A stretch of 29,698 nucleotides of DNA from a virus. The notes beneath the pieces are model-generated. The model was not told where the DNA came from. It worked only from the letters and a program-made list of their open reading frames with translations, and did not search any database. Below are positions 6,761 to 8,729 of this stretch, piece by piece (position 1 is the stretch's first letter; each line of letters begins with the position of its first letter). A program made the position numbers and the translations under genes. The stretch is from positions 1 through 29,698 of the IMG/VR virus record IMGVR_UViG_3300025626_000091, one strand, 5' to 3'.

Positions 6761-7081
6761 CTATTTCTTTTTATTTTGAAACCCAAAGAAAGCAGCAACG
6801 ATACCAGCAACAGATACAAAGTATGTTGGTGCCATATCACCTAATGTTTCTTGGGCTTGATCTAATCCAATTAATGATGCAATAACAACAGCAAACGGGT
6901 ATAGCAACAAACCACCAAGAGCAAACCAAGTCATGTTACGCTGTGCGTCACGCATGGCATCAGCGTCTTCGAGCTCTTTTCGTTTAAATTCTAAATACAA
7001 CTGTTCTTCAGCATCACTCACATTACCATCTCCGTTTGTGTCGGCTGGATGGAATGTTTGCTCTTTTGTTTCTTCTGTCAT
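6761..7081 (-). CDS. Two-TM membrane protein with an EF-hand loop
   Basis: A 106-residue protein. Residues 14-25 form a textbook calcium-binding loop, DTNGDGNVSDAE, with acidic or polar ligands at positions 1, 3, 5, 7, 9 and 12. A charged helix follows (EFKRKELEDADAMRD), then two hydrophobic segments at about 52-72 and 86-101, and a Lys-Lys-Lys end. The charge pattern suggests both termini are cytoplasmic. It lies between the gp26 frameshift ORF (10 nt) and the tape measure (9 nt), with an AAGGA ribosome site, so it belongs to the tail-hub operon. A short two-TM protein could be a class II-like holin or a membrane partner used in DNA delivery; neither is proven. No T4 counterpart is recognised. 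Confidence 0.75.
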   Translation of the reverse strand: MTEETKEQTFHPADTNGDGNVSDAEEQLYLEFKRKELEDADAMRDAQRNMTWFALGGLLLYPFAVVIASLIGLDQAQETLGDMAPTYFVSVAGIVAAFFGFQNKKK

Positions 7082-7090
7082 TTCATATCC

Positions 7091-7264
7091 TTACTTTTGC
7101 TGTTTAGCCATTTCTTCTTGTTCTTCTAGATAGTTCTGTAGAAGAGTGACATATATATCTCGCTCAAATGGAATCATATCATCCAGCTCAGATAAGCTGT
7201 AGTTATGGTGTTGCATTAGAGCGAAGTTCATCTGGTACATATTCGCCAATGAGTCATGTACCAT
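7091..7264 (-). CDS. Small ORF, probable -1 frameshift extension of gp26 (tail assembly chaperone C-terminal part)
   Basis: A 57-codon frame from ATG 7264 to TAA 7091. It reads MVHDSLANMYQMNFALMQHH, then NYSLSELDDMIPFERDIYVT and a Glu/Gln-rich end. I recognise the NFALMQHHxYSLSE...IPxERxxY pattern from proteins encoded right after gp26 in T4-like phages. The ATG has no Shine-Dalgarno sequence and lies 2 nt after the gp26 stop (TAAGCATG). The frame is open upstream through the gp26 slippery site, so a -1 shift gives an in-frame fusion of about 292 residues. Alternatively it is made by termination-reinitiation. The position before the tape measure suits a tail assembly chaperone. It is clearly conserved coding sequence; its mode of expression is inferred. 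Confidence 0.75.
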   Translation of the reverse strand: MVHDSLANMYQMNFALMQHHNYSLSELDDMIPFERDIYVTLLQNYLEEQEEMAKQQK

Positions 7265-7279
7265 GCTTATGTAAAAAAA
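7233..7279 (-). promoter_or_regulatory. Candidate programmed -1 ribosomal frameshift signal
   Basis: On the minus strand, gp26 ends GCT TTT TTT ACA TAA. The seven T at 7279-7273 form a T_TTT_TTT heptamer in the correct phase for X_XXY_YYZ slippage. After a 9-nt spacer (7272-7264) comes an 8-bp perfect stem, TGGTACAT (7263-7256) with ATGTACCA (7240-7233), and a 15-nt loop that can form a further 3 bp. Slippage bypasses the stop and reads TAC ATA AGC ATG into the downstream ORF. All three parts (heptamer, spacer, structure) meet the usual rules. A homopolymer length error in the sequence is the main alternative. Confidence 0.7.
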
Positions 7280-7968
7280 GCTGCGAGACCCTCCAGGATC
7301 AACTCATCTTCTTTACCGCATTCTGGGCATTTCCAAGCGACCTTATGCTGCAGCTTTGGCGACTCATTAAAGAAAGTAGTAATCTTAGAAAACTGCTCAG
7401 AGCTCAACTGCTCCAACCACTTCTCCATTTCCTTAACAGTAAAGTCCCCATAAACATTCTCGTCATCATAAACAAACTCAATACAATTAGATATTAATTT
7501 GAATAGGTCTGATGTTGAATCAGTATCAATCTGTTTTATATCAGTCATACCAGCGAATCTGACTTTGACGCCAATGTTATCATCTATCTGTATTTTGCCG
7601 TCAGATATTTCTCCGACAACTTCAATCGCATCGATGTTAATATCAATTTCGGTTCTATGAGTACACGCATTGTCAGGGTTAGAGTGGCCAACCTTCAACT
7701 CTATCACTTCCCCGACAGACTTTCCTCGTAACTTTAAGAACAGATACTCAACATCGAATGTTGCTAATGTGTTTATATCAATGTCACTTATAATACAATT
7801 GCCTAGTATCTTTAATATGGCATTTGTAATTTCATCCTGATCATTACCTTCGAGAGCCATGAGAAGAATCTTTTCCTCTTTGACTAAGAAAGGTCTATAT
7901 TTTATTTCTTCACCTGTCGACGGCACTGCCGTGATAAACTCAGGCGCAGATAATGTTGGTAAAGCCAT
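7267..7968 (-). CDS. 26: gp26-family baseplate hub / tail assembly protein
   Basis: A 233-residue protein of the T4 gp26 family (T4: 208 residues). The N-terminus PTLSAPEFITAVPSTGEEI plus the following YRPFLVKEEKILLMALE is characteristic, as are the DVEYLFLKLRGKSVGE segment and a C-terminal CPECGKED element that looks like half of a zinc ribbon. T4 genetics places gp26 in hub assembly. Here it sits two genes before the tape measure and ends in a slippery T7 run, so a chaperone role like lambda gpG is an attractive inference. GGAG lies 8 nt before the ATG. It is 26 nt downstream of the gp54-like gene. A -1 shift would extend it by about 60 residues. Confidence 0.87.
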   Translation of the reverse strand: MALPTLSAPEFITAVPSTGEEIKYRPFLVKEEKILLMALEGNDQDEITNAILKILGNCIISDIDINTLATFDVEYLFLKLRGKSVGEVIELKVGHSNPDNACTHRTEIDINIDAIEVVGEISDGKIQIDDNIGVKVRFAGMTDIKQIDTDSTSDLFKLISNCIEFVYDDENVYGDFTVKEMEKWLEQLSSEQFSKITTFFNESPKLQHKVAWKCPECGKEDELILEGLAAFFT

Positions 7969-7994: not shown

Positions 7995-8729
7995 TTAAAA
8001 TTGTAACGCACTTCTAATTGAGGCAACTCTGTTATTTATGTTACCTACAGATGCATTAATTTGTCCGCCAAGTCCACTCGCCCCAACTATACTTCCGAGG
8101 CTTGGTATATTCACGCTTCCGCTTATACCACCAGTCCCAAGTCTGACTGAAAACCCAAATCCCTTTTCGGGTTGATCTTGCTTTGTGTATAGACACTTAT
8201 AATTTTTGTAAGCAAACGTAACACCTAATTTAGCAGCACCATCCTCAGCCCAATTCATTGTAACTGGGTTTATGATTAATGGGTATGCTTCGTTTAATGT
8301 GTGTATCGAATGTAATTTACCATGCGAACCATATTGGCGTATCTCTATGGTTCCAGCATAGTCGTCAAAGTATTTTGTGTTAAAGTTTGCTTGTCCATTA
8401 TTTGAGCTGAATGCTCCAGTACCAACCATCTTATCTTGCCAGATTTCAAAGTATTCCTTTTCTCTCATATCCTGACTCATGATAAATTGAACAGTAACAT
8501 CTCCATATATTTGACCATAAGCCACTTTGTTAACTGGACCATAGTTCTGGAACTTGTGCTCAACAGAGGCTACGCTTCTTCCTGGGATGTCGGCACTTTC
8601 TGCACGGTAAGTAAGTTCACGCTCAGTTCCCACGTCACCCCCACCTTGAATGAATACTTCAAAGTGTGATGTCTTGGCAAAACCAGTTTTGTTTAGCGAT
8701 GCCACCATGTCATTGACGTTAAATCCCAT
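7995..8729 (-). CDS. 54: gp54/gp19-like tail tube family protein (baseplate-tube initiator)
   Basis: A 244-residue protein of the T4 tail-tube fold family: TSHFEVFIQGGG, AESADIPGRS, YGQIYGDVTVQFIMS, EYFEIWQD and NPVTMNWAEDGAAKLGVTFAY are typical tube-protein strands. The major tube protein gp19 (163 residues in T4) lacks the C-terminal extension seen here (Gly/Ser/Asn-rich, about residues 195-244). T4 gp54, which caps the hub and starts tube polymerisation, has a similar tail. With gp48 encoded 1.1 kb away across the divergent promoter and the tape measure in the same operon, gp54 is the better call. A minor tube-like hub protein is the alternative. The start overlaps the previous gene's stop (TAATG), so the two are translationally coupled. 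Confidence 0.7.
   Translation of the reverse strand: MGFNVNDMVASLNKTGFAKTSHFEVFIQGGGDVGTERELTYRAESADIPGRSVASVEHKFQNYGPVNKVAYGQIYGDVTVQFIMSQDMREKEYFEIWQDKMVGTGAFSSNNGQANFNTKYFDDYAGTIEIRQYGSHGKLHSIHTLNEAYPLIINPVTMNWAEDGAAKLGVTFAYKNYKCLYTKQDQPEKGFGFSVRLGTGGISGSVNIPSLGSIVGASGLGGQINASVGNINNRVASIRSALQF
8033..8040 (-). promoter_or_regulatory. Possible variant late box CATAAATA inside the gp54-like gene
   Basis: On the minus strand CATAAATA reads toward gp26, whose start is 65 nt away. One mismatch to TATAAATA. It lies inside coding sequence, so chance is a real possibility. Confidence 0.2.

Follow-up and report, generated by a model that had tools for sequence, protein, structure and literature searches.

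A tail assembly chaperone gene of a T4-like phage in which a -1 frameshift probably joins gp26 to the C-terminal domain of gp51

The window, meaning the whole stretch of DNA analysed here, is 29.7 kb long, part of a virus record, and carries T4-like baseplate, tail tube and head-completion genes, as identified by Pfam and PHROG profile matches. The tail tube protein is encoded at 7995-8729. On its minus strand (Table 1) lies gp26, whose PF12322 match scores 207 bits against a cut-off of 24.5 and whose 3' end reads GCA GCT TTT TTT ACA TAA. The T-run in this end forms a heptamer that fits the canonical X_XXY_YYZ pattern, in phase ahead of the gp26 stop, and the -1 frame is free of stops from 7303 down to the stop at 7091. 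Read across FF-YIS, with base 7273 used twice, gp26 and the -1 extension make a fusion of 292 aa. A first-pass annotation of the bare DNA had built on these elements, namely a T_TTT_TTT heptamer in phase at 7279-7273, a 9-nt spacer followed by a perfect 8-bp stem, a -1 frame open into a 57-codon ORF, the resulting fusion, and an ATG at 7264 that has no Shine-Dalgarno sequence; every one of them is present. A near DNA search across phage records gave no match to the window, and protein searches were therefore used.

Table 1. Features of the chaperone locus and its neighbours in the window (all on the minus strand)
Feature	Coordinates	Strand	Evidence
gp26, predicted short chaperone form TAC-N, 233 aa	7267..7968	-	PF12322 2.8e-61; phrog_150 1.1e-64
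Slippery heptamer T_TTT_TTT, in phase with gp26, one codon (ACA) before the stop	7273..7279	-	
gp26 stop codon TAA, which a -1 shift would bypass	7267..7269	-	
9-nt spacer between heptamer and stem, ACATAAGCA	7264..7272	-	
-1 frame extension YIS...KQQK to stop, gp51-type C domain of the predicted TAC-NC	7091..7273	-	phrog_634, phrog_150 C-terminal columns; -1 frame in 197/197 loci
Stem, 5' arm	7255..7263	-	covariation; fold
Stem, 3' arm	7233..7241	-	covariation; fold
ATG of the 57-codon ORF, judged not a start	7262..7264	-	not conserved; without ribosome site
GGAGGG, Shine-Dalgarno-like, ends 9 nt upstream of the heptamer	7289..7294	-	spacing; codon choice; no gp51-frame start
Membrane protein of 106 aa, EF-hand-like, encoded between the chaperone and presumed tape measure genes	6761..7081	-	
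Presumed tape measure protein, 596 aa	4961..6751	-	position and hydrophobic segments only

The 57-residue product of the small ORF matches phrog_634 (gp51, 'baseplate hub assembly catalyst') at 1.2e-24, and also the C-terminal columns of phrog_150, the family of gp26, whose profile is long enough for both parts. What had been presented as a small downstream ORF of its own is instead, by its profile matches, the C-terminal domain of gp51 and no new gene. In T4, gp51 carries PF12322 over residues 1-201 and is matched by the phrog_150 profile to its end, gp26 matches the first part of phrog_150 only, that is the PF12322 domain alone, and the C-terminus of gp51 aligns with the window's small ORF. 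Because of these matches and this alignment, T4 gp51 is, at the level of domains, the long form and T4 gp26 the short form of what the window encodes in one gene. Both viruses thus have the gp26 N domain and the gp51 N plus C domain, but T4 holds them in two diverged genes on opposite strands, and its gene 26 lacks a terminal slippery site, the -1 frame there leading into gene 25. Searched whole, T4 has two PF12322 genes and 18 other phages have one each; 15 T4-like phages with the T-run combine a single PF12322 gene with a -1 extension, and in 3 of the 18 (two Ackermannviridae, one Vibrio phage) the -1 C domain is kept without the T-run. One PF12322 gene and no second is found in the window's fragment, which is an incomplete genome. 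The two-gene layout of T4 recurs in Aeromonas phage UP87. As an aside, T4 gp26 (L042, 7803-8429) has a weak match to phrog_1140 (gp28, hub distal subunit; E 9e-4), on the strength of which gp28 may also be related to the chaperone N domain.

Relatives were collected as 934 phage records by protein search and through three scans of viral contigs, with protein words away from the heptamer as scan patterns. Wherever a relative has both parts (197 of 197), an in-phase T_TTT_TTN is followed by the second part in the -1 frame; this number counts loci and not viruses, as some contigs were fetched repeatedly, and the repeats are removed in a less-redundant set of 123 loci. The heptamer reads TTTTTTT in 100 of the 197, TTTTTTC in 95 and TTTTTTA in two. 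In the less-redundant set, the first (P-site) Phe codon is always TTT (123/123, versus 939/1330 elsewhere) and the base preceding it is always T (123/123), while only 12 of 132 other Phe-Phe pairs of the same genes show T_TTT_TT. The set spans cyanophages, HTVC008M (Pelagibacter) and Melnitz-3 (Methylophilales), together with KVP40-type Vibrio, Aeromonas, pf16, Stenotrophomonas and Rhizobium phages, in which gp26 shares 27-33% identity with the window's protein. Judged on this comparison, the combination of T_TTT_TTT and -1 frame is far beyond chance and no sequencing error; a miscounted homopolymer is very unlikely because L001, a separate contig 97% identical, has seven Ts as well.

Public records annotate gp51 as its own gene, and in the window ATG 7264 stands close to the gp26 stop, which would suit a separate small protein translated from that ATG or nearby, using a ribosome site of its own or translationally coupled to termination of gp26. 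The candidate start is, however, not conserved. Within the window's clade the ATG is swapped for TTG, CTG, CTC or TTA; 120 of the 123 loci lack any ATG or GTG that has a ribosome site and lies near the start of the C domain, and in 37 of the 123 its first 15 codons hold no ATG at all. The gp51 starts annotated in public records vary from phage to phage. Moreover, a separate gp51 would not need an invariant -1 frame and heptamer, and in T4 gp51 the N domain is fused. We therefore rejected a free-standing gp51 gene on its unconserved start and absent ribosome sites, and consider it highly improbable.

A second alternative keeps a single gene and moves the slip to the polymerase: seven consecutive Ts stand in the window, polymerases can slip on such runs, and frame-shifted mRNAs would then take the place of ribosomal slippage. 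We give this reading equally little credence. The run is of six Ts only in 83 of 123 loci, which is short for transcriptional slippage, and TTC serves as the second (A-site) Phe codon in 81 of 121 loci, versus 391 of 1330 (29%) elsewhere (p 6e-16; this and the other conservation p-values ignore shared ancestry, although gp26 identity to the window drops to 27% among the loci). Because TTC is enriched at this codon, selection appears to shorten the T-run without disturbing the ribosomal X_XXY_YYZ phase; transcriptional slippage was rejected on the length of the run and the enrichment of TTC. The Shine-Dalgarno-like element and the stem, which would act on ribosomes, also argue against it. Outside the window's clade, codon usage suggests that U_UUU_UUC is favoured over U_UUU_UUU, as it seems to be in L039, L040 and L050. 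Last, homopolymer errors are common in general, and a true run of eight (or six) Ts would turn gp26-gp51 into one plain open frame, but the frame relation is unchanged in L001 and throughout the 197 loci, half of which read TTTTTTC and hence have no seven-base run, and complete phage genomes agree on it, so that an assembly error is for practical purposes refuted and deserves next to no belief.

A few phages depart from this pattern. Four Ackermannviridae loci (L058, L060, L206, L208) and two from Vibrio phages (L057, L207) keep the -1 frame C domain, with its MPWHL motif, and have the run of six Ts replaced by [GA]ATTTTC or CTTTT[TC]. P-site re-pairing would be poor at these sequences, and another type of slippage or another mechanism may operate there.

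Returning to ribosomal slippage, the heptamer is preceded in the window by a Shine-Dalgarno-like GGAGGG that the first-pass annotation had missed. A GGAGG or GAGGG core stands at exactly the same spacing in 84 of 123 loci, and a comparable core in 0.8% of other 12-nt stretches of the gene. As the 5-nt core is missing in 38 of the 123, we regard the element as a modulator and not a requirement. GGAGGG overlaps a conserved Leu-Glu-Gly, and codon choice was therefore tested with the amino acids fixed. The Glu codon at the element is GAG in 84 of 109 cases versus 766 of 2906 elsewhere (odds ratio 9.4, p 5e-27), and the excess persists in the strictest set of 54 more distant loci (30/44 versus 353/1250, odds ratio 5.4, p 8e-8). 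Pairing with the anti-Shine-Dalgarno sequence (CCUCCU) averages -7.0 kcal/mol, versus -4.2 for synonymous recodings, with 0 of 100 as low. Synonymous codon choice thus indicates that the element is under selection. The element was rejected as a ribosome site for gp51, since none of 85 core-bearing loci has a gp51-frame start codon 3-13 nt behind the core; by analogy with known signals it would stimulate frameshifting. It is apparently absent from the earlier descriptions that we found, as far as the accessible parts of those go.

Downstream of the heptamer, a G-U pair (7255/7241) adds a ninth to the eight perfect pairs of the stem (7263-7256 with 7240-7233). The fold has an energy of -10.4 kcal/mol and a z of -1.88, a level reached by 10 of 200 shuffles; taken alone in the window this would be unremarkable, and it is covariation that supports the stem. 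In an alignment of 31 distinct sequences of the window's clade, from which six more distant members with a mostly disrupted stem were left out, 96.4% of cells pair, and 16 are changed on both sides versus 4.9 in shuffles (0/500 as high), while sliding the partner gives at most three double-changed cells. Nearly all double changes come from one pair (columns 19/45, G-C/A-U), plus one C-G swap. With one pair dominating, they may reflect few evolutionary events, and we see the covariation as good but not overwhelming support for a functional stem. Compensatory change is found within the window's clade only, mainly at that one pair; other lineages have hairpins of their own (z -4 to -6.6 in P-HM2, AG-345-L05, S-WAM1 and S-SSM6a) or no clear downstream fold (L025, L027, L030, L051 and L059). 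Over 31 loci, downstream folds average a z of -1.77 with a standard error of 0.29. A single universal stem was accordingly rejected.

Between the chaperone gene and the presumed tape measure lies a gene for a protein of 106 aa that combines two hydrophobic segments with an EF-hand-like loop (DTNGDGNVSDAEE) and for which we found no Pfam, NCBIfam or meaningful PHROG match. It is 77% and 64% identical to the proteins at the same place in Melnitz-3 and HTVC008M, where the adjacent gp26 is less conserved (42% and 38%), and it is unannotated at the same place in the cyanophages looked at. The distance from the gp51 C domain to this gene is about 455 bases in L011, L012, L080 and L081 and 3-27 bases in the other listed loci. 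The 596-aa ORF that follows is presumed to be the tape measure by its position and hydrophobic segments; its only family match is phrog_27688, of unknown function, and comparisons with the PDB and HTVC008M gave no support for a tape measure.

The predicted structure of gp26 (pLDDT 88.9) matches baseplate hub proteins among viral models. Against the PDB it has no significant match, the highest probability among the matches listed belonging to 2ob9, the tail assembly chaperone of HK97; the similarity is slight, with E 1.3 and a probability of 0.60 over about 63 columns, and the likeness of the model to 2ob9 is a hint and not proof. A search of the gp26 sequence against solved structures gave no match.

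Frameshifting is reportedly conserved in several T4-like groups, with the T4 group using genes 26 and 51. Casting gp26 as a chaperone, as the first-pass annotation did, is likewise no new step, since gp26 and gp51 are both already listed as hub assembly chaperones in T4; a 2016 review still lists T4 as an exception. Tail assembly chaperone genes of T4-like phages were identified by Vladimirov, Gautam and Davidson (Virology 2022;566:9-15, doi 10.1016/j.virol.2021.11.003). In the accessible portions of two later articles, that work is cited for T4-like phages that do not frameshift but encode the short chaperone and a fused long one in separate genes (PMC10885494) and for poly-T -1 slippery signals in T4-like TAC-N genes (PMC12846349). 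According to these citations the core idea was published in 2022 and is therefore not new, contrary to the first-pass view that no frameshift was established for T4-type gp26. As far as those texts describe them, the published phages share the TAC-N/TAC-NC logic predicted for the window, which differs in belonging to an uncultivated lineage and in its upstream element and covarying stem, both unmentioned in the literature found, within its accessible parts.

Other systems resemble the locus in part. In lambda G/GT, as predicted for the window, a short form is accompanied by a rare long form made by -1 frameshifting, and the pair is encoded a short way upstream of the tape measure; in the window one extra small membrane protein gene lies between the chaperone and the presumed tape measure. 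The lambda slippery site is G_GGA_AAG. Escherichia coli dnaX presents a Shine-Dalgarno-like sequence, a slippery heptamer and a downstream stem in the same order as the window, although its heptamer is A_AAA_AAG and not U_UUU_UUU and the genes are unrelated. In dnaX the Shine-Dalgarno-like sequence lies about 10 nt upstream of the heptamer. The internal Shine-Dalgarno of that signal is treated in PMC5600365, in the part accessible. The chaperone locus of Vandenendeviridae and Andersonviridae (PMC12846349) has, as predicted for the window, a T-rich -1 site leading into a C-terminal domain upstream of the tape measure, but with a GTTTTT motif.

Comparison across relatives supports the gene architecture, the heptamer, the stem, the upstream element and the assignment of the C domain to gp51, and the -1 frameshift making a lambda G/GT-like chaperone pair, as first suggested from the DNA, is strongly supported by it. 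We hold with high confidence that gp26 and the 57-codon ORF are one tail assembly chaperone gene, giving short and long forms by -1 frameshifting, whose occurrence and rate we infer. Most ribosomes would stop at the TAA at 7269-7267 and release the short TAC-N (gp26), while a minority would slip back one base on U_UUU_UUU, with the 16S anti-Shine-Dalgarno pairing with GGAGGG nine bases upstream during the slip and the 9-bp stem blocking the way ahead. Slipped ribosomes would make the long TAC-NC, ending in the gp51 C domain. If the two forms act as lambda gpG and gpGT do, many short copies would coat the tape measure and a few long ones would recruit the tail tube protein. Beyond the window, we lean towards the view that single-gene T4-like phages use a three-part, dnaX-like signal (upstream GGAGG, U_UUU_UUY, downstream stem) in which the upstream element would be an evolved dial of the short-to-long chaperone ratio, and that the T4 group does without it by means of genes 26 and 51.

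The locus in the window thus very likely joins, mechanism included, the published T4-like frameshifted chaperones. The frameshifted chaperone would then be no rarity but near-universal in a large set of T4-like phages, marine and otherwise, in whose public annotations the C domain is named as a free-standing gp51 with drifting starts or omitted. The upstream element offers a specific point, open to experiment, at which the balance between the two chaperone forms could be controlled, and comparison with T4, which has two genes and lacks a slippery site, allows the switch between frameshifting and a two-gene arrangement to be traced.
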